From the NCBI GenBank assembly GCA_960531495.1, contig OY482855.1, positions 12,098,865-12,162,864 on the forward strand: a stretch of 64,000 nucleotides of DNA, read 5' to 3'. The notes below the pieces were generated by a model. That model did no database searches. It saw only the letters and a program-made list of their open reading frames with translations, and was not told the origin of the DNA. Positions 265 through 58,755 of the stretch are shown in pieces; position 1 is the first letter of the stretch, and every line of letters begins with the position of its first letter. Origin of the DNA: Zeus faber. Lineage: Eukaryota > Chordata > Actinopteri > Zeiformes > Zeidae. The translations under genes and the position numbers were made by a program.

Positions 265-39017
<38,753 letters not shown>

Positions 39018-44182: not shown

Positions 44183-46135
44183 ATGACGCTGACGACTATA
44201 AAAGATGGCGAGTACACAGCCACGATCTATAAACTGATTAAAGATAGTCGTTATGGAGACGCCATACGGATTCTAAGTAATGAGCTTCAAAAACACACTA
44301 GGTCCAGGGCAGCTTTCTCTCTGCTGGGCTACTGCTACTACCACCTGCAGGACTTCACCAATGCGACAGAGTGTTACGAGCAGCTCACGCAGCTGCACCC
44401 AGAGGTGGAGGAGTACAAGCTGTACTACGCCCAGTCCCTGTACGGAGCCTGCGTCTACCCAGAGGCCATGAGGGCCACCTTCCTGCTGGACAACCCCAAA
44501 ACTCACACCAAGAGGATTAAACTTCAAGCAGCTATCAAGTACAGTGAAGAGGAGTACGCTGCAGCCAAGGCGCTGGTGGAGCAGCTTCCTCAAGATGACC
44601 CAGACTATAACGTGGATCTGGGCTGTCTGGTCTACCAGGAGGGGAAGTATGAGGAGGCCTGCAAGAGGTTCAGCTCAGCCCTGCAGGAGCTGGGGTACCA
44701 GCCAGATCTGTCTTATTACATTGCGCTCTGTCACTACAGTCTCAGAAACTACACTCAGGCCCACAAGCACATTGCAGAAATCATAGAACGAGGCATCAGA
44801 CAGCATCCAGAGCTGAGTGTGGGCATGGCGACAGAAGGCGTGGAGGTTTGCAGCGTAGGAAACACTTTCGTGCTGCACGAGACTGCGCTGATTGAAGCTT
44901 TTAATCTGAAGGCGGCTATCGAGTTCCAGCTGAAAAACTATAAAGCTGCTCAGGAAGCTCTTACGGACATGCCTCCCAGATCTGAGGAGGAGCTGGACCC
45001 TGTGACACTCCACAACCAGGCTCTCATGAATATGGATCAGAATCCGTCAGTGGGGTTTGAGAAGCTGGCCTTCCTGCTGCAGCAGGTTCCCTTCCCCCCC
45101 GCCACCTTCGCTAACCTGCTTCTGCTCTACTGCAAATTTGAGTACTTTGACCTGGCGGCTGATGTCTTGGCAGAGAATGCCCACATCACATATAAGTTCC
45201 TTTCCCCATACCTCTATGAGTTTCTGGATGCCATGCTGACCTGTCAGACAGCTCCTCAGGAGGCCTTCAAGAAATTTGACGAGATGAACGGCAAACTCAC
45301 AAAGCAGTTACGCAAGCTCGCCAAGCAGGTGCAGGAAATGAGGCTGTCTTGTGATGAAGAGGGGCTGAAAAAGGGCGTGCAGGATTACGACCAACTGCTG
45401 GAGAAGCACATCCCGGTACTAATGGCTCAAGCTAAGATCTATTGGAAGCGGGAGAACTACCAAATGGTGGAGAAGCTTTTCCGCAAATCAGTGGAGATCT
45501 GCAACGAGCATAACACCTGGAAGCTCAACGTAGCACACGTGCTCTTCATGCAGGAGAAATACAAGGAGGCCATTGGCTTTTATGAGCCCATAGTGAAGAA
45601 CCACTATGACAACATCTTGAATGTCAGTGCAGTGGTTCTGGCTAACATGTGTGTGTCCTACATCATGACCAGCCAGAATGAAGAGGCAGAGGAGTTGATG
45701 AGGAAGATAGAGAAAGAAGAAAAACAGATCTCGTACGATAACCCAGACAAGAAGGTTTTCCACCTCTGCATCGTCAACCTGGTCATTGGGACCCTGTACT
45801 GTGCCAAGGAAAACTTTGACTTTGGCATCTCTCGTGTCATCAAGAGCCTGGAGCCGTACAACAAGAAGCTGGGGACGGACACCTGGTTCTACGCTAAACA
45901 TTGCTTCCTGTCCCTGTTGGAGAACATGGCCAAACAGATGATCATGCTGAGAGACTCCATCATCCAGGACTGTATCCTGTTTCTGGAGCAGTGTGAGATG
46001 TACGGCAGGGGGGAGTCTGCCATAATTAAGCAGCCTCTGGAGGATGAGCACCCTCATGATGGCAAGAACACCGTCACCTATGAGGCGCGGCAGCTCAAGG
46101 CGCTGTTCTACGAGGTAATCGGATGGAACCAGTGA
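44183..46135 (+). CDS. ttc30a: Tetratricopeptide repeat protein 30 / IFT70, intronless
   Basis: 650 codons, intact, beginning MTLTTIKDGEYTATIYKLIK and ending FYEVIGWNQ. Family members are about 650-665 residues, so it is full length. TPR helices run through the protein, e.g. AFSLLGYCYYHLQDFTNATE (about 45-64), VDLGCLVYQEGKYEEACKRF (about 144-163) and LNVAHVLFMQEKYKEAIGFY (about 450-470). IFT70 is a core subunit of intraflagellar transport complex B, binding IFT52/IFT88. It is needed for cilium assembly and, from the zebrafish fleer mutant, for axonemal tubulin polyglutamylation. TTC30 genes are naturally single-exon in vertebrates, so the lack of introns does not mark this as a retrocopy. The ATG at 44183 matches the family N-terminus; the upstream 100 bases are very AT-rich with no clear promoter. 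Whether the name should be ttc30a or ttc30b cannot be told here. Confidence 0.96.
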   Translation: MTLTTIKDGEYTATIYKLIKDSRYGDAIRILSNELQKHTRSRAAFSLLGYCYYHLQDFTNATECYEQLTQLHPEVEEYKLYYAQSLYGACVYPEAMRATFLLDNPKTHTKRIKLQAAIKYSEEEYAAAKALVEQLPQDDPDYNVDLGCLVYQEGKYEEACKRFSSALQELGYQPDLSYYIALCHYSLRNYTQAHKHIAEIIERGIRQHPELSVGMATEGVEVCSVGNTFVLHETALIEAFNLKAAIEFQLKNYKAAQEALTDMPPRSEEELDPVTLHNQALMNMDQNPSVGFEKLAFLLQQVPFPPATFANLLLLYCKFEYFDLAADVLAENAHITYKFLSPYLYEFLDAMLTCQTAPQEAFKKFDEMNGKLTKQLRKLAKQVQEMRLSCDEEGLKKGVQDYDQLLEKHIPVLMAQAKIYWKRENYQMVEKLFRKSVEICNEHNTWKLNVAHVLFMQEKYKEAIGFYEPIVKNHYDNILNVSAVVLANMCVSYIMTSQNEEAEELMRKIEKEEKQISYDNPDKKVFHLCIVNLVIGTLYCAKENFDFGISRVIKSLEPYNKKLGTDTWFYAKHCFLSLLENMAKQMIMLRDSIIQDCILFLEQCEMYGRGESAIIKQPLEDEHPHDGKNTVTYEARQLKALFYEVIGWNQ

Positions 46136-46189: not shown

Positions 46190-46740
46190 AAGGAATTTTA
46201 CCGCGCCAGCCTGGCAGCTGGAGCGCTCACTTAGGCCCACAATGAAATACGACGGCTAACCGATGAGCTGGAGTCTGCTCGCTTGACCCAGAGAGCTTAT
46301 GAGCTCTGCAGCAAGCTTAACAAGAGAACAGCTCCTCAGACAGGAAGTCAGTAAACTGAAGAATTGTCCGATTGTTCCGCTGCACACAGAACTCTTAAGA
46401 ATAATCGACTAGATCAAGAGAAGAGCGAAGCCGCATTCCTGTGATGCTGAGATGAGCTCCCTGCATGACAAGATGGTATCTCTGCAGAGGGAAGTGGATC
46501 AGCTGCGGTCTGTACTCCAATTGCAGCAGAGCGAGGCTAAACAGCAGCTTCTAACTCTGCAGGCTCGGTCAGACCAGGCCAACGAGTTGGCAAAATCTTG
46601 TGCATCTTAAATGAGAAGATAGTTGATCAGACACTGCCTTGCAGAGAGCAGAGGTAGTACTGCAGAAGGAGATGCACAGACTTGAGTCTGTCCTCCAAGG
46701 GCAGCAGCATGAGGCTAAAAATCGATCAGGTCGGACGGTT
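46190..46740 (+). pseudogene. Degraded coiled-coil-coding stretch
   Basis: Pieces of heptad-like peptide lie in succession but in broken frames: LTDELESARLTQRAYELCSK near 46256, an open 52-codon run 46452-46610 (MSSLHDKMVSLQREVDQLRS...QQSEAKQQLL), and LQKEMHRLESVLQGQQHEAK near 46657. The last two share the pattern LQ-(K/R)-E-x-x-(Q/R)-L-x-SVLQ-x-QQ-x-EAK, so an internal repeat of a coiled-coil gene seems to have decayed here. Parent gene not recognised; it does not match the myh10 rod. Confidence 0.4.
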
Positions 46741-47345: not shown

Positions 47346-49285
47346 AGTGATGGTCTGTTTTTTGGGGTTTTTTTTACATTTGAATTATAGCCTTGTCTTG
47401 CTTAAAGCATTTGCATCTGTTGGGGTCTCTAGAGATGGGCTACATAAACCTGATGATTACAATGCCATGCTCAGAACACCATCACACTGCATAAAGCCTT
47501 AATTGTTAATAAACATGTGTGTACTATGGAAAAAAAAGCTACCCACACTGTCAAAGCAAAGGATCCTTACAGGGTAAGGCATCGGAACATGGCAGCAACG
47601 GAGCCTGAGTGAAAAATATTCTGCAATGTCGGAGGATTAACTCAGGACGTTAGGAAACGATATCTCACCGGACAATGTTCTGGGTCTACGTGCTGTTACT
47701 GAGGATTATCTCTGCAGATTTGAAGACAAGCCAACAGCATTGGCTTCACAAAATAAGTATTCACACCACAGCAGCTATATGCATGTCTGAATGAGTTATT
47801 AGTGACTTGTTTGGTGCCTCATTATTTGTGTTTTAAAATAAAACACTACATCAAACAAAATACCCTCATCATTGATATCAACTGTCTTCAACATTTTTTT
47901 CAAAGTTTAATGTTTTCACTTGTAGTGCCTGTAAAGTAATGAAGACTGAAACTCTTGATAGTTAAGTATGTTCACATTGGAGGGGGAGATTCACCACACC
48001 AGGCTACAATTAAACATAAAACCAAAACACATTTACGCAGAAAACATAAACATCGGAGGACAACATGTATTAAAAAAATAGTTAATTAAGTCCAGGAAAA
48101 CTGGAACAGCAATTGGGCACGTGGCCTCTTCCTGTCATCGTTATGGCAGTAAATGAAGGAGGAAAGGAAAGGAATGCTCCAGGAGGGTGCTAGGGTGTGA
48201 TCAAAGCAGGTGTGTGTGTGTGTGTGTGTGTGTGTGTCCACCGGTGAGTGTACAGGACTCCCAATTGGTTCTGGTGTATAAGGTCGGTATTATATCGTGA
48301 CGCCTTCAAGCAGTGGAAAGGGCCCCGAAGCCAAAACAAAATGTACTTAAGTACAGATACTTCAAAGATGTACTTAAGCTTTCCACCACTGCTATCTGTC
48401 TGTCTGTCAAAAACTAATTTTGTGTTTATTTAGGAGTAGATATGAAGGAATCCATTTTATCACGGCAATTATGGGTAATATTATACAATATAAATCACAT
48501 TATTTCCTTATATGCACTTTTTTTGAAAAACCCCCATATTAAATGGTTTAATAATGTAATTTATCAGACTAGGTTTCATACTGATGGTAATCTGTTTGGC
48601 CTTGAATTTAAACTTTTATAATTGTCAATTGTCTGAAAAGAAACTATTACCATGGAACAAGTTTATCGTAAAGTTTGCTTATTCACCACCATGTCCGTGT
48701 CCACTCTGTACGTTCTCTAATGGGCCTGTTTTTTCTAATTCAAATTATTGGGATACTTATTATTGGGATACTTGTGCATCACTCACATGGGATGTGAGTG
48801 ATGCACGGCGCCGATCACTGGAGTGTCAAAAGGAAACCCAAACACTCTGGAAAAAAATAAAAATTCTCAAGAGCCCGTGGCACCCCAAGGCTCAAGGCAA
48901 TTGCTGAACTATGCCATATGGAAAGACTGCCTGTGGGAACACAGGCCAGTAAAAAAATGGTCTGAGCCTAGTAACCCTGCGTAGGAACCTCATTTTGGCC
49001 AGCTATATCCTGGACCTGAGTCTTTTGGTCACTTGCAAATGCTCATGACAATAGGTGAAGGTTAGAATGCATATTGACCAGTAAATTGAGAGCTTGGCCT
49101 CTTGACTCAGCTCTCTCTTCACCACGTTGGTCTGGGACAGTGTCTAGTTTCCTGCAGATGCTGCACCCGTCTGTCTGTCAGTCTCACACTCCCTCCTACC
49201 CTCACTTGTGAACACCAAGACACGTAAACGCCTCCACTTGGGTCGCCTGCTCTCTCACCAGTCAGAAGTGACAAGCCATCTTTTT
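47346..49285. other. Gene-poor stretch with repeat pieces
   Basis: Contains a fragment (47850-47965) matching the flank of ORF-family copy 2 (CCCTCATCATTGATATCAAC), a short (GT)n at 48211-48237, a transposon-end-like GTACTTAAGTACAG to TTTCCACCACTG piece at 48340-48392, and a perfect hairpin at 48774-48806. No gene recognised. Confidence 0.5.
48774..48806. repeat. Perfect 15-bp hairpin
   Basis: GTGCATCACTCACAT, loop GGG, ATGTGAGTGATGCAC. Preceded by a direct duplication of TTATTGGGATACTT. Confidence 0.85.
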
Positions 49286-50216: not shown

Positions 50217-50696
50217 TCACATGTGGAAGCGTTTGCGTGGCTGCTGACCTTCCTCAGTTAATTCAGAAGATCTCTTGCAGCCCTGCTTCACTGGAGCTTC
50301 AGGTGAGGAGCCCAGAGCAGAGCTCATTGTCTGCTGGTTCCTCTGCAGGATGTGCTGCACTTTTTCAGCCCACTTTGGCACAGGACCAAGTGTCACCTTC
50401 TTCCTCATTGGTGGGCAAGGAATCAGGATAGCCTTTCTGTGTACTTTTGGGTGCCGGATGGAGTCCGGTACTTTGATTTTTTTAAGAATGATCCTGAGTG
50501 AATCAGGATTCTTTGGATCCTTCACCGGGACAGAAATCCATGTGTGTGACGGATCCTCTGCATCCTTGTTGTTTATTCCTTTTGAATGGGAAACGCCCTG
50601 CGTTGGGACCTGCCTCAGGAGTATCCTCACACCAATGCTGCTTGGGTTACGGACCAGAGTGGAGGTCCAGACCAAGGAGTTATCCCGTTGATCATC
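50217..50696 (-). CDS. Uncharacterised ORF family, copy 1
   Basis: Open for about 159 codons to a stop at 50217, beginning ILDIDDQRDNSLVWTSTLVR just after ATAG at the 5' side. Aligned with copies 2 and 3 it keeps W-T-x-TLVR-(N/D)P, (V/M)RILLRQV, the DP-S-(H/D)TWISVPVKDPKNP block and SLR(I/V)ILKKIKVPD, then P-x-PKW-x-xKV-x-x-ILQR and EAPVKQGCK; the C-terminus adds SSELTEEGQQPRKRFHM. An in-frame TAG directly precedes the run and the copy has ATA where the others have ATG, so it is more likely a 3' exon with acceptor ATAG than a whole gene. I do not recognise the domain. A conserved frame despite clear nucleotide divergence argues for real coding (inference). Confidence 0.5.
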   Translation of the reverse strand, partial: DDQRDNSLVWTSTLVRNPSSIGVRILLRQVPTQGVSHSKGINNKDAEDPSHTWISVPVKDPKNPDSLRIILKKIKVPDSIRHPKVHRKAILIPCPPMRKKVTLGPVPKWAEKVQHILQRNQQTMSSALGSSPEAPVKQGCKRSSELTEEGQQPRKRFHM

Positions 50697-51169
50697 GATG
50701 TCCAGTATCTATAAGATAAAATAACAACACTTGAATAATCCCCGGGGGAGAATTCAGGTGTTGCTGCAGCAAAACACTGCGAACCAAGAAAGAGATTAAC
50801 ATGAGTTAAACAAAATAAATACAAAATATGTATGTTTACTGACTGTAGCGCTGTCCAAGATGGGTAGGTGATTTTCTTTTTACAAATAGTATAAAGCTGC
50901 GGTGCTTAGCAATAATATGCAATTATAGTATTATTGCATATTATTGCAAGACACTGCTGCAGATATTTACTGTACCAGCTTATTACTAGGAGACCGTGTA
51001 AGAGATTGGAAGTAGGAGACAGACTAGGAGGCAGTCAAGGAGGTTAGAGACAATTTAGGAGCAAGGGCGCAGTGCAGTCTTCTTCTGGAGTTTTACAGCC
51101 TACTCTGCTACATCTTATACACCACCCTCCTGCTGCTGTTGCATCGTGTCTAAGTACAACTAGAACATT

Positions 51170-51440
51170 TCTGGTAAAAATGTGAAAGCGTGCTGGCCCC
51201 TTGCGCGTGTGGCTTTGTGGAGATTTCCCTTAATATGTTTACATATGTTTCCATGAGGACTATATTCATGTGCCATATTCTATGCTTTTCCCATAGGAAA
51301 CCTCTATGGCCATATTGTGGCACAGAAAGTGAAATATCTTGTAAACCTTTCGCCAAAACCCTACAGCACACCGGTTGGGATCGAGCCGGTCATTTTGGTA
51401 TATTTCACATGTATGTGGATTGAAAACTGTGAGAGAAGTA
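51170..51440 (+). repeat. Interspersed repeat related to 12245-12570
   Basis: Same ordered blocks as the intronic copy: GCGTGCTGGCCCC, TTCCCTTAATATGTTTACAT, ATGTTTCCATGAGGAC, CATGTGCCATATTC and CCAAAACCC. A further short piece of the family (GGGCTATGTGGGGAATCCCC) lies at 52460-52500. The remainder of 50830-53770 is AT-rich with a G-run/GT tract at 52252-52288; no gene recognised. Confidence 0.5.
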
Positions 51441-53770
51441 GCGTGGCACAATTTGATGTGTGGCCACTCAAAATGATGTGCAATAAGTGTGTGGCGCTGC
51501 CAGCAGACATAAATAGAAACGTTTAAATAAATTGGGTTATGATGTGATGGCATTTAATACCTGTAGTTATGCCATTTATCTTTGGTACATAATCTATTGC
51601 ACTTGCAGCTGCAACTAATACAATACGTAACTGAATTATTTACCCATTGCCTTTTTTTACTTGTCTACAGAGACCACGGAGCAAAACCAAGCTAATAAAA
51701 TGAATGGCAGAGAATGCCTTTTCACCAAAAATCGCATTACTGCTAAGCATGGCCGGGAGTTAGTACAGTTATTATGAATATTATTATGAGTATGATGATA
51801 TTGCAGCATTAGTAATTAAAATAAATGGATAATTGATTCATTGATTGATATACATTAATATACTGTTTGTGGTATTGTGCAGTTTTCCATTATAATTGTC
51901 TACCATCCACAGACATTTATGGTCACTGTAGTGCATGATATGAGGACATGGTTAGTTCAGTAACTTCAAGGTGAAGTTGAAACTTTTGGAGTTGATTACA
52001 ACATTCAGAAAAGTGTGAAGTTATGAAGTGAGTTGAATAGAGTTGAGTTATTAGAGAATGTGATTTGTTAGGCCTTTTTCCCCAGGAAAACACCCCATTA
52101 ATGGGCAACCAATAGTTGGACACCAGCCGCTTGGTGACGTTTTCATATAAACAGGAAATGATGACAGAGGGGACATCGTCAACACCTTGAAACAAGTGTC
52201 ACTCAAAAAAGGGGGGAATAGTTAAGGTTGCGTGGGGGCGGATGGGGGCTTGTGGGGGGGGGGGGGGGGGGCGTGTGTGTGTGTGGGTGTGTGTGACTGA
52301 CGGAGGGAGTTGAGGTAGCACCCCTCGTCTACTGACGAGGGCTTCTCTCTGCTTTTGCTTCTGCTTCGTCTTGGGTTTTCACTTCTTCTGCACACGAGAG
52401 GCTCGGCTCGGCTTTAAAGGTGCAACGTTGTGACGTCACAAAGACATCACATGATGATCTGGGGGCTATGTGGGGAATCCCCCAAATGTTTTCATGCGAC
52501 AAAACACAATGACACCAGTTACACAATTTTGAAAAACAAAAGAAATAAACAAAATTGTTCCAAAGATAGAGATGTGAGTGTTTTTATAAGATATCCTGGT
52601 TATGATTTTTAATTGTAAATAGTTTTCTGTAATTGCAGTTAAAATGCTGGAATCAAAATAAAAAGATAAAGAGTGGCTTGAAAGAAACATTTTATTTTTC
52701 TTATTCCTTGGGTTGTAATGGAGGAAATAATAAAGGTTCTCGTGCATTGTTTCCTGGGTATTACATATTTCTTACATATTTAAATGTAAACTCTTACACA
52801 GCCATTATCACAATTGTTTTCTAAACCCACTTTGTTTCATGTGATTGCACAAAACAATAGCATTTTAAAAGGAGAACATTTTAAGCAGAGTGTGTGATGC
52901 TATCTGTCTTCCTCTGTCGCTTTTCGTGTCAGTTTCAGCAAAAGAACGTTACACAAATCAGTGACAGAAGTCTGTTTGGTTTTACATCATATATAACGCC
53001 TTTGCGGAGGAATAAGTCCGTTCTTCTCTCAGGCTCCAAGCGGTTGAGTGGAATTGTATTTTATTGAGACGGACCTGGAGAGAGAATATCAGTTTAGAGG
53101 GTTTTGACGTTGTAGAATTGACATGCTTGAATAACGACTTCCGAATTCCAATGGAATGCAGCACTATCTCCTGAGTCAAAGAGTCTCCCCCCATCCACCC
53201 ACACACACCTGGGGGCTGGCCCTACAGGTTTGTACATCCTGCTCAAATTTGGTGTTACAATGCGTCCTTGGTGATGCGATCACAAGTGGACAGCTCTGAA
53301 TCCAGATGCGATCACACCCAAAGCATTGAGGAAGCACTGAGATCCCCACGCTCACGCCACATTGGGAGGTGGTCAGGGATCCATGGAGGTCACATTAGTG
53401 TGTCAGAGTGTTTCACAACCTTTGTTTACGCTGAAGTATTCCCACAGAACACCACTATCCTGTTGAACGCTAAAAAAATGTCATGTATTACTCATATAAA
53501 TACATGTATTGTATAACTAGTAATAGTTCATTTTCAGTGTGAAATTTGGTCTGAGCACAGAGCTGTTATTCTGGCTGTAACTGATTTATTAGTAGAGCCT
53601 TACAATTCTGATCTTGCACCACAAACTCATTTCCATTATTTATTTGTTTTATGTGGAATTTGGTACATTATCCCGGGACCACAGCAATTTCCTACTGTTA
53701 AATTGAGGAATTTGATCAAGACAGATTAAATATTTTTCTGAAATATGAGACGATTTGTAAAAATAAAATT

Positions 53771-53772
<2 letters not shown>

Positions 53773-53816
<44 letters not shown>
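53773..53816 (+). repeat. (CA)n microsatellite
   Basis: Forty-odd bases of CA, ending a few bases before the 3' end of ORF-family copy 2. Confidence 0.95.
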
Positions 53817-53820
<4 letters not shown>

Positions 53821-53825
53821 TGTGC

Positions 53826-54161
53826 TTAATCTGAGTCCACCCTCTGGTTCCTCTGGTTCTTCAGGATCCTGTGCACTTTCTGGGGCCACCTAGGCCTAGG
53901 ACCGGGGCTCACCTTCCTCTTCCTCTTCCTCTTCCTCTTCCTCTTCCTCTTCCTCTTTTGGGGATTATTGGGCTCCTTCACTGGGGCAGAGATCCAGGTG
54001 TCTGATTGATCCTCTGGGTCTTGGTTGTTCTTCACATGTGAATGGGAGACTAGGACCTGCCTCAGGAGGATCCTCATCCCGAGGTGGGGGCTTGGATCCT
54101 GGACCAGAGTGCACGTCCAGACCCAGGACTGGTCACCTTGACTATCCATGTCCAGCATCTA
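53826..54161 (-). CDS. Uncharacterised ORF family, copy 2
   Basis: 110 codons, MLDMDSQGDQSWVWTCTLVQ to the stop at 53826, preceded by TTCATAG as in copy 3. Shares GMRILLRQVL, NNQDPEDQSDTWISAPVKEP and PRWPQKVHRIL with copy 3. The middle SLRVILKKIKVPD block is replaced by a 16-residue alternating Lys-Arg run encoded by a (TTCCTC)n repeat on the plus strand. Shorter at the C-terminus than the other copies. Possibly a decaying copy; no stop inside. Confidence 0.45.
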
Positions 54162-54785
54162 TGAAGGATGAGTCACTGTTTTTTGTTATGCTCTCAAATT
54201 TATTTTATTTTTTTCAAATTAAAATAAACAATAATAATAATATCATAATATACTATATTAAAATGATACACCCTCATCATTGATATCAACCAAACAAAAG
54301 TTCTTCAACAGTATTTTCAAAGTTCCATGTTTTCCTACAGTACTTGAATGCCTAACAGGCAGGTAAAATGCAAAAGGAGCTTCCTACTTTTGACAGAGTT
54401 CTGTCGAAGTTTCTATTGCTGTTTTACTCTTGTAGTGCATAGTAATAGTAATGAAGACCATGTCCGGATGAATTTCAGCTAAAACCCACAAAAAAAAATC
54501 AATCAATAATAGAGAGAAGTGTGTGTGCGTATGTGTCCATGATGTCACAGGTGGAATTATCTGTCATTCCAAGTGTTCCATGGAATGTGATGTGATGGAA
54601 ATTCTATGATCTCAATAGCAACAATCATCCAAAATAAATGGATTAGAATGTGAATAGAATAGCAGAATGAGAATAAAGAAAACACCATGTAATTTTATAT
54701 ATCTTTAATCAATATGTTGTAATACAAACGCTCATAGAGAAGTACTTTGACATTGGGGTTTACCAAATATAATATATGAATGTAT

Positions 54786-55245
54786 CGATATGCCCTTGTC
54801 CTCGTCTTGTCCTGTGTGGCGTTGGCATGGGGGCCCCACCTGCTTGCTCTCTGGGTGGGCCGTCCTGACAATGGGTTGGTCGCGGGCTGTGGTCTGTGCT
54901 TGCCGTCTGCGGCTCGGTTCTTCGTTTGCGGGTACGTCTTATGGCTGTGCATGGGGGTGGGTTGTGTGTGCGATGCAGTTGTGAGGGCTCATCTTGTGCA
55001 TTTGGGGACTGGTGGTGTGCGTGGATGTTGCTCTGCGGGCTCTTGGCTTCTCTGTGGGTTCAGGGTTCTTGGGCTCGGAATGTTCTTGCAGCTGTATGGC
55101 ATTTGCGTGGCTCTGGGGTTCACGTGTTGACCAATCCTGTGCACTAACTGTATAGGTTGATACATAACTCTGCACTCGGCACTCTGAGTCTAATAACCCA
55201 GGGACCCACAGAGGTCTCAATGCTGCCCTAACTCGCAAGTTATGT
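54786..55245 (+). other. GC-rich spacer of the inverted duplication
   Basis: In contrast to the AT-rich arms this segment is rich in G and T (GGGTGGGCCGTCCTGACAAT, TGGTCGCGGGCTGTGGTC). Frames are open for 80-116 codons but encode a Cys/Trp/Gly-rich sequence with no recognisable domain; composition explains the openness. Probably repeat-derived, family unknown. Confidence 0.4.
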
Positions 55246-55938
55246 TTTTTTTAAATGATGTATCTACATATACTATAATTGTGGTTCTCAATTTTCATCT
55301 AGTATACTATATCAATTATATTTTATACATTATATTTAGTAAACCCCAATGTCAAAGTACTTATCTATGATAGTGATAGTTTGATAGTGATAGTTGATAT
55401 GATAGTTTTTTTTATTAATTTTTATTTATTATAGAAATATTAAGTCACATAGTGTGGTTTTTATTCTCATTCAACTATTCTATTGACATTCTTAATCCAT
55501 GTATTTTGGAGAGTAGTTGCTAAGGAGATCATAGAATTCTCATCATACATTCCATGAAACATGTGGAAAGAGATTGACAGATCATTCCACCTGTGACATC
55601 ATGGACACATATACATACACACATCTCTCTGATAGCACTTGACATTTTATGGATTTTAGCTAAAATTCATCACGACACAGTCCTCATAACTATATGCACA
55701 GCAAGAGTGGAACACCAATCTAAACTTTGACAGAACTGTGTCAAAGGTAAGAAGCTCCTTCAGGGTTTTACCTCAAGGACCATAGGAAAACATGAAACTT
55801 TGAAAGTACTGTTGAAGACCTTTTATTCAGTTGATATCAATGATGAGGGTGTGTTTTTTGAAATAGTATTTTTTTTTTAACAAACAAACAAAAACAATTA
55901 TTTGAGAGCATAACCAAAACACACTGGCTCAGCCTTCA

Positions 55939-56397
55939 TAGATGCTGGACATGGATGGTCAAGGGGACCAATCCTGGGACTGGACCTGCACTCTGGTCCG
56001 GGATCCGAGCCATCGCCTCGGCATGAGGATCCTCCTGAGACAGGTCCCAATCTCCCCTTCACACAGAAAGAACAACCAGGATCCAGAGGATCCATCAGAC
56101 ACTTGGATCTCGGTCCCGGTGAAGGACCCTAAGAACCCCCATTCACTCAGAGTTATCCTCAAGAAAATCAAAGTACCTGATCCTGTAGTTCCCAGGCAAG
56201 CTATCCTCATCCCCTGCCTCCATATGATTAGAAAGAGGAAGAGGAAGAGGAAGAAGAAGGTGAGTCCTCGTCCTGAGCCAAAGTGGACCCAGAAAGTGCA
56301 CAGGATCCTCCAGAGGAAGCAGGGGATGGACTCTGCTTTGGACTCCTCAGATGAAGCTCCAGTGAAGCAGGGCTGCAAGAGTCCTGCTGGACCCTGA
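55939..56397 (+). CDS. Uncharacterised ORF family, copy 3
   Basis: MLDMDGQGDQSWDWTCTLVR starts at 55942 just after TTCATAG; about 151 codons to the stop at 56395-56397. Contains GMRILLRQVP, EDPSDTWISVPVKDPKNP, SLRVILKKIKVPDP, a basic RKRKRKRKKK, PKWTQKVHRILQRKQ and DEAPVKQGCK. The most complete copy next to copy 1. The basic block could serve nuclear targeting (inference). It points away from copy 2 in a divergent pair about 1.8 kb apart. Function unknown; expression evidence needed to call it a gene. Confidence 0.5.
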
Positions 56398-57065: not shown

Positions 57066-58755
57066 TAGCTGGTTGCTGCTTGGTAGCCAGGTTATGCATG
57101 GAAGCCTGGGTGCTGCTTGGAAGCTTGGGTGCTGCTTGGGAGCCTAAGTGCTGCTTGGAAGCCAGGTTGCTACTTAGTAACCTTGTTGCTCCTTGTTTCC
57201 CTGGTTGCGGCCTGGGAGCCTGGTTGTTCTTGGAAGCCTGGGTTCTGCTTGGAAGCCAGGTTGCTGCTTGCAGGGAGCCAGGTTGCTGCTTGGAAGCCTG
57301 GGAGCTAGTTGGGAGCCTGGTTGCTGCTTGGAAGCCTGGGTGCTGCTTGCAAGCCTGGGGGCTGCTTGGAAGCCTGGTTGCTGCTTGGGAGCCTGGTTGT
57401 TGCTTGGGAGCCCAGTTGCTACTTGGAAGCCTGGGTTCTGCTTGCAAGCCTGAGTGTTGCTTGGGAGCCTGGTTGCTGCTTGGAAGCTTGGGTACTGCTT
57501 AGAGCCTGGGTGTTGCTTGGGAGCCAGGTTGCCGCTTGGCAGCCAGGTTGTTGTTTGGGAGCCTGATTGCTGCTTGGAAGCCTGGTTGCTGCTTGGAAGC
57601 ATGGTTATTGCTTGGAAGCATGGTTACTGCTTGAAAGCCTGGTTGCTGGTTGCTGGTTAGAAGCCTGGGTGCTGCTTGTGTCACGACCAAAAAGGTCCAA
57701 ACCTGGGCTAGTAGGAAGTCTGGATCTCTGGACGACGTTTCTATCTATTCTGGCCTCAAAAACTTAGAAGAAAAAACACTGGAACCGTCTGATGTGAAAA
57801 AGTTTATTGTGGATCCGAGAGTCAAGCACAGCAACAAACAGTGAGTAGCGCTCTGGAGCCCGGCGAACAAACTGATCCCTTGGACTTCCTTATATATATC
57901 CAAGAATTTCTCTCCCCTCATTACATGGCCTACCCCTTTCAGTGCAGGGAACCAATTATAGTCTTTGGGTTATGTCTCAGGGAACCAATCGCAGTCTTGT
58001 GACTTCATCCCCTGTTCCCAGAAAGGCCTGTCATGGTTCCTGGAATGCTTGTGTCACATTTTACCAAATATCGGCATGTTTTCTTTTCCTGCTGGTGTTT
58101 TGTTCAGATATGACTGTGGCTTGTTTCTCAGTATCAGCTGTATCTGCCTGGTGTTCTGCTCAGGCCTGTTTCCCTAGAAGACTATGTTCTTTCTGTTATT
58201 TTATTACTTCCCTTTTTTTGGGTTTTATAGCATACTTTTTTTTAAAGATTTATTTAATAAATATACCTTGAATATATACCTTGAATATTGGTGGTTTAGT
58301 ATAACATGTAATCATTTTCTTGTCATGTGGGGATTAATTATTAACGACAACACTTGGAAGCCTGGGTGCTACTTGGGAGCCAGGTTGCTGCTTGGGAGCC
58401 TGGTTACTGTTTGGGAGCCTGATTGCTGCTTGGAAGCCTGGTTGCTGCTTGGAAGCCTGATTGCTGCTTGGGAGCCTGGTTACTGCTTGGAAGCTTGGTT
58501 GCTGCTTGGAAGCCTGGGTGCTGCTTGGAAATCTGGGCACTGCTTAGAAGCCAGGATGCTGCTTGGGAGCCAGGTAACTGCGCGGGAGCCAGGTTGCTGC
58601 TTGGGGGCCAGATTGCTGTTTGGGAACCTGATTGCTACTTGGAAGCCTGGTTACTTCTTGAAAGCCTGGTTGCTGCTTGGAAGCCTGTGTGCTGCTTAGA
58701 AGCCAGGTTGCTGCTTGAGAGCCTGGTTGCTGCTTGGGAGCCTGGTTGCTGCTTA
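57066..58755 (+). repeat. 19-bp minisatellite, split by an LTR insertion
   Basis: About 32 units at 57066-57678 and about 21 at 58353-58755 of the consensus CTTGGAAGCCTGGTTGCTG with frequent variants (GGGA for GGAA, CAGG for CTGG, GGGTGC for GGTTGC). The unit has no stop in any frame on either strand, and 19 is not a multiple of 3. Long frames therefore open everywhere with a 19-residue period (LLGSLVAAWKPGCCLEAW-like). They are not genes. Confidence 0.95.
57679..58352 (+). mobile_element. Solo LTR (fossil) with 4-bp target duplication
   Basis: 674 bp beginning TGTCACGACC and ending ACGACAACA, with TGT...ACA termini. It is flanked by CTTG on both sides (57675-57678 and 58353-58356), which belongs to the minisatellite unit. 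It carries a TATA-like TTATATATATCC near 57892 and an AATAAA near 58255, as expected for an LTR. No internal region is present, so it is the product of LTR-LTR recombination. The family is not assigned; the clean target duplication suggests moderate age. Confidence 0.8.

Follow-up and report, generated by a model that had tools for sequence, protein, structure and literature searches.

In a 64,000-nucleotide stretch of the Zeus faber genome (assembly GCA_960531495.1, contig OY482855.1, positions 12,098,865 to 12,162,864 of the forward strand; hereafter the window, numbered from its first letter), three open reading frames (ORFs), designated here c1, c2 and c3, are coding sequences under purifying selection, a conclusion that is strongly supported. 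The explanation that we favour, with somewhat better than even confidence, is that they are three diverged copies of one selected coding exon, each likely the final exon of a gene that was duplicated locally and encodes a small, basic and probably nuclear protein. We read a locally duplicated and uncharacterised teleost gene family as the source of these 3' exons.

Selection on a frame shared by three copies

The ORF c1 (50217..50708, minus strand) is open over 163 codons from an ATA to its stop, is without an ATG at its start and is probably the oldest copy. In c2 (53826..54158, minus strand), which has 110 codons, a net 72 nucleotides have been lost in frame from the second of two internal repeats; this copy also carries an array of the hexamer AGGAAG, and its stop codon adjoins a CA microsatellite. 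The third, c3 (55942..56397, plus strand), has 151 codons and is the most complete of the copies having the ATG. When each copy was compared with the window by tblastn, the other two were recovered at E values of 8e-20 to 2e-46 and the next row had an E value of 0.16, which bears out the claim of an earlier sequence-only reading that three ORFs on both strands keep one common frame. Protein identity to c3 is 69% for c1 and 74% for c2. No further copies were found in the 64-kb window by tblastn, by a profile of the three proteins or by a profile of their repeated module run against the window frames, where the best non-self matches had E values of 0.10 (protein profile) and 0.37 (module profile). 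The motifs by which that reading had recognised the family are present and are not letter-perfect, as c1 reads HTWISVPVKDP in the second and c2 has RW for KW in the last.

The ratio of nonsynonymous to synonymous divergence (dN/dS, or omega) between the copies had been set beforehand as a check on the family, and as its refuter if near 1. It was not near 1, and the proposal that the frame is under selection was upheld by pairwise values of 0.25-0.44. For c1 and c3, after gapped codons and the alignment from column 150 onwards had been removed, the ratio was 0.296 by the Nei-Gojobori method and 0.324 by maximum likelihood (ML) over 131 codons, with twice the log-likelihood difference (2dlnL) at 18.3. 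For c2 and c3, with the low-complexity and deleted region masked, the two methods gave 0.253 and 0.250 over 94 codons (2dlnL 15.9), and for c1 and c2 they gave 0.441 and 0.393 over 93 codons (2dlnL 8.3). A one-ratio model over the three branches yielded an omega of 0.33 (2dlnL 18.6 versus neutrality). As a control, 70 segments of at most 39 codons, shorter than the exon comparison, were taken from the noncoding arms that lie upstream of c2 and c3; their median omega was 0.79, and the highest 2dlnL at an omega below 1 was 5.5 among the six segments listed. Sense frame 0 is the sole stop-free frame of the six in both compared pairs, and a codon-usage score that took the window's IFT70A gene as reference was positive in this frame alone in all three copies. 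Opposite c1 (50275-50691, plus strand) and c3 (55959-56378, minus strand) lie antisense ORFs of 138 and 139 amino acids, which share third positions with the sense frame.

The pattern of insertions and deletions also bears on the keeping of the frame. From the ATAG that precedes each ORF until the c3 stop, a codon-unaware DNA alignment of c1 and c3 has indels of 3, 9, 12, 24, 3 and 2 bases, five of the six being multiples of three; the 2-base indel sits at the last sense codon of c3, where the C-terminal tails cease to be alike, and a 1-base indel lies immediately before the ATAG. Between c2 and c3 the indels up to the c2 stop are of 20 and 52 bases (net 72) and of 6 bases, and in the noncoding arms of this pair the length is divisible by three in 3 of 10 indels. 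Differences within the AGGAAG array were left out as evidence, because the period itself preserves the frame. Neutral drift was simulated at the c1-c3 synonymous distance (K 0.63), using the rate and lengths of indels observed in the arms and giving no credit for compensating shifts; in none of 20000 runs did the frame stay open with every indel a multiple of three.

Local duplication and the structure of the ORF starts

Each ORF begins directly after an ATAG, found at 50709..50712 (minus strand) for c1, at 54159..54162 (minus strand) for c2 and at 55938..55941 (plus strand) for c3. In all three copies the TAG of this tetranucleotide is a stop in the frame of the ORF and also supplies an acceptor-like AG, preceded at c1 by a T-rich tract, and it may be used there as a splice acceptor. 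The sequence-only reading had thus been right that each copy starts straight after an ATAG with an in-frame stop, the TAG itself being that stop, and that one copy lacks an ATG at this point; the first-codon positions that it gave (50696, 54161 and 55939) are corrected here to 50708, 54158 and 55942. The copy without the ATG is c1, which carries ATA for the first ATG and ATC for the second ATG of c2 and c3, and in which the first methionine is approximately the 101st codon. Because each TAG is in frame, there can be no read-through from upstream without splicing, and since the first ATG of c1 comes only at about codon 101 and a TAG lies directly upstream of this copy, it could be translated only by way of splicing or of a non-ATG start, unless its start has been lost. 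Chiefly because c1 is without an early ATG while its frame begins at the conserved TAG, it is likely that c1, c2 and c3 are the duplicated last (3') exons of a gene. A phase-0 intron would then be spliced out up to the ATAG, a step that c1 would need.

The copies c2 and c3 form a head-to-head inverted duplication that includes their noncoding upstream arms, which are 82% identical. The c2 arm (54163..54780, minus strand) is the inverted duplicate of the c3 arm (55322..55937, plus strand), with 466 of 570 aligned bases the same over 55325-55937 and ten indels; between them lies an unpaired spacer of 541 bases (54781..55321). The similarity extends from the arms across the exons as far as 53833 and 56333. 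The match between c1 and c3 is restricted to the stretch from the ATAG until near the stop (50712-50264 against 55938-56389), and no homology could be detected between the sequence upstream of c1 and that upstream of either other copy, since 154 (c2) and 401 (c3) of 500 shuffles scored as well. Because the exon alone is common to c1 and c3, c1 is probably an older duplicate, whose exon would have been conserved as its intron diverged. Relic D (47822..47950, minus strand), a degenerate duplicate of the upstream arm, matched by blastn at 77% over 106 columns, and its score to the c2 arm and to the c3 arm was reached by none of 500 shuffles each; no exon was recognisable beside it in the tblastn and profile searches of the window. 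The three ORFs and relic D all lie inside 8.3 kb of the 64-kb window, a closeness for which the chance, calculated post hoc, was 0.008 for the four loci and 0.022 for the three exons. A hairpin-like inverted repeat of 32 nucleotides, 81% complementary, was also observed upstream of c1 in the putative intron (50896-50960).

A repeated module in a basic protein

The proteins contain an internal repeat, which is new relative to the earlier reading. A module of about 35 residues, W-x4-V-[RK]-[DN]-P-x(4,5)-[LMV]-R-[IV]-[LI]-L, is found twice in both c1 and c3; c2 holds the first repeat, in which Q replaces R/K, and the opening part of the second, most of which is missing. Local alignment of the c3 halves scored 49 against a shuffle mean of 21, a score that was reached by none of 5000 shuffles, and the corresponding score in c1 was reached by 1 of 5000. 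In c3 the first module (55972..56070, residues 11-43) is predicted by a low-confidence model as a beta hairpin with strands at residues 12-20 and 28-36, and the second (56095..56196, residues 52-85) as a strand and a helix with no hairpin. The repeats are followed by a Lys/Arg tract (56230..56259, residues 97-106 of c3), long in c2 and c3 and short in c1, which is likely a nuclear-localisation or nucleic-acid-contact segment, as judged from its composition. C-terminal of this tract the copies have in common a [KR]W..KV..IL segment, which in c3 falls within a predicted helix (56281..56322, residues 114-127; low-confidence model). The proteins have isoelectric points of 10.2-11.2, and both AlphaFold2 models that were made place a strand pair on the first repeat and a helix on the C-terminal motif.

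From these features a mechanism can be proposed. A partner would bind to a small beta-containing surface built by the repeated module, and the Lys/Arg tract would retain the protein on DNA or RNA within the nucleus, which might make it a nuclear adaptor. New copies would come from local duplication, retain the frame for as long as they are selected and later erode, the last step being put forward because the shortened second repeat and 3' end of c2, together with relic D, suggest erosion. A more specific and more tentative proposal, which we hold to be possible and somewhat doubtful, is that this is a new teleost family with two tandem beta-containing modules, a polybasic tract and a C-terminal helix, whose last exon spreads by local inverted duplication into head-to-head gene pairs and evolves rapidly under strict selection on its frame.

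Database searches gave no convincing relative. With c1, c2 and c3 as queries nothing in Pfam exceeded the curated cut-off. The sole Pfam row, DUF3381/Spb1, was regarded as chance: it resembles the family in its Lys/Arg-rich stretch and differs in that the match is found in c2 only, where it overlaps the low-complexity tract and at 13.3 bits (E 0.072) stays below the cut-off of 25 bits. NCBIfam and PHROGs gave nothing that passed a cut-off or had a convincing E value, and neither c3 nor a three-row profile had a convincing match in the PDB, where the best profile match, an entry for transcription elongation factor S-II (E 0.047), was likewise regarded as chance. In a set of 5.8 billion proteins, none of 94 candidates reached an E value of 0.01 or below and none of 7984 scored candidates an E value of 1 or below; the search was confined to proteins whose length is 0.55-1.75 times that of the query, which for c3 means about 83-264 residues, so that long proteins ending in the exon fall outside it. 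The same set is rich in fish, as a positive control showed: IFT70A retrieved 2037 proteins from it, those named among the 120 listed being from teleosts except for the coelacanth. No relative was found in the viral contigs and prokaryote genomes scanned. The description of the family as unknown holds for Pfam, NCBIfam, PHROGs and the PDB and, within the protein set, for proteins of about 83-264 residues.

According to the gene statistics of a zebrafish study (PMC3599513), orphan genes average 131 amino acids and 2.3 exons and teleost-specific genes 168 amino acids and 3.7 exons; some of these genes have paralogs and many have no known function. The proteins described here are short like those of that set, a likeness which fits membership and does not prove it. 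They differ from it in that two of the copies are a head-to-head inverted duplicate, and in that the lineage restriction of c1, c2 and c3 is putative. If our explanation is true, these sequences represent a coding gene family that homology-based annotation would overlook, with short last exons, no known domains and one copy without a start codon, and they encode a small, internally repeated protein module without a convincing match in the domain libraries used. It would also follow that the comparison of nearby paralogs inside one genome can suffice to detect selected coding sequence.

Competing explanations and neighbouring sequence

Several observations weigh against the explanation that we favour. 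With regard to selection, neutrality on single branches was rejected for c2 only (2dlnL 8.4) and not for c1 (1.6) or c3 (2.6), and the continued function of c1 is therefore not proven. Synonymous divergence between c2 and c3 (0.46) exceeds the divergence of the arms (about 0.21), which raises the arm-scaled omega to about 0.56; as p-distances, synonymous sites (53942-54158 and 55942-56141) gave 0.35 versus 0.18 in the arms (P 0.0035), and nonsynonymous sites, at 0.11 versus 0.18 (P 0.0099), were still lower than the arms. Base composition or a bias in the arm alignment, the sole explanations offered, may account for the synonymous excess. The antisense frame that shares third positions has an omega of 0.50 for c1-c3 (2dlnL 7.0) and of 0.29 for c2-c3 (2dlnL 12.5). 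Antisense coding was nevertheless rejected, as this frame has one or two stops and likelihood-ratio values below those of the sense frame (18.3 and 15.9), and it was interpreted as shadowing the sense frame.

With regard to the gene model, the earlier suggestion of duplicated 3' exons of an unknown gene is favoured by the start structure of c1, and the upstream exon that it calls for was not identified by six-frame peptide comparison, by a scan for ATG-to-donor segments or by a test of the open frame in the arms. The best upstream peptide match of c1, of 24 residues, was a weak one (E 9e-5 without composition correction). The remaining six-frame matches paired the c2 arm with the homologous c3 arm, the best of them being the arm open frame that was tested. 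The scan gave 4, 1 and 4 candidates for c1, c2 and c3, mutually dissimilar. The arm open frame (54387-54563, minus strand, and 55578-55727, plus strand) was rejected as an upstream exon, there being no significant selection on its 39 codons (ML omega 0.49, 2dlnL 1.8; Nei-Gojobori 0.34). At the protein level, BLASTP between the two repeat halves was weak (E 0.088), the AlphaFold2 models were poor (mean predicted local distance difference test score 52.5 with three sequences and 42.5 with two), and both predict a strand followed by a helix for the second repeat, an argument against a fold common to the two repeats. The nuclear role is read from composition, and the adaptor role from composition and the tentative secondary structure.

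The main rival, which we consider rather unlikely, is that the three ORFs belong to an undescribed mobile element, that selection acted earlier in an active lineage, and that c1, c2, c3 and relic D represent inactive insertions. Fish transposable-element ORFs share with our sequences repeated flanks, a selected frame and a relic copy without an ORF; in c2 and c3 the noncoding flanks were duplicated together with the exon, relic D is a flank without an exon, and no first exon was found. Low dN/dS among dead copies is typical of element ORFs, and we count it for this rival. Unlike such elements, all copies found cluster within 8.3 kb of the window, no Pfam mobility domain is present in c1, c2 or c3, and no terminal inverted repeats of at least 14 nucleotides bracket the c3 or the c1 unit, the inverted-repeat scan having yielded only a 15-nucleotide palindrome, an inner 14-nucleotide pair and the hairpin upstream of c1. 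The exon alone, moreover, is what c1 shares with the other copies.

Improbable in our judgement is a third account, by which the ORFs are 3' exons, or fragments, of a longer fish gene that is already annotated and that exceeds the length range of the protein search. That range, and a frame start that suits an internal acceptor, are in its favour; no convincing Pfam or PDB match was obtained, so this part of such a gene would resemble no domain described there. That the copies are a noncoding or antisense repeat with accidental open frames, as the long antisense ORFs might suggest, is barely credible, being contradicted by the dN/dS result and opposed by the six-frame test, codon usage, the indel pattern, the arm control and the neutral simulation.

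IFT70A/TTC30A is an intact single-exon ORF of 650 codons (44183-46135, plus strand) that places the window in a teleost, and among its 120 matches listed the top one is from Polymixia lowei at 86% identity, with further teleosts at 83% or less. A literature search joining IFT70A, teleost and uncharacterized protein found nothing. Because a myosin heavy-chain exon of the nonmuscle/smooth type lies at about 32898-33131 (plus strand), with Myosin-10 as the nearest solved chain, a myosin gene, or part of such a gene, is present upstream of IFT70A. In a Pfam scan of 20 other window ORFs, taken from 131 of at least 80 amino acids, this exon alone passed the cut-off. Immediately 3' of IFT70A (46450-46700, plus strand), possible broken, coiled-coil-like coding remnants were noticed by eye.

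The 3' element of an UnaL2 long interspersed nuclear element (Rfam RF00436) lies at 19728-19781 (plus strand). An inverted pair at 14240-14570 and 36413-36074, aligned over 340 columns at 79% identity, is probably a dispersed repeat. Just past c3, a minisatellite with a 19-bp unit forms two arrays, at 57069-57678 (about 31 copies) and 58353-58754 (about 21 copies).

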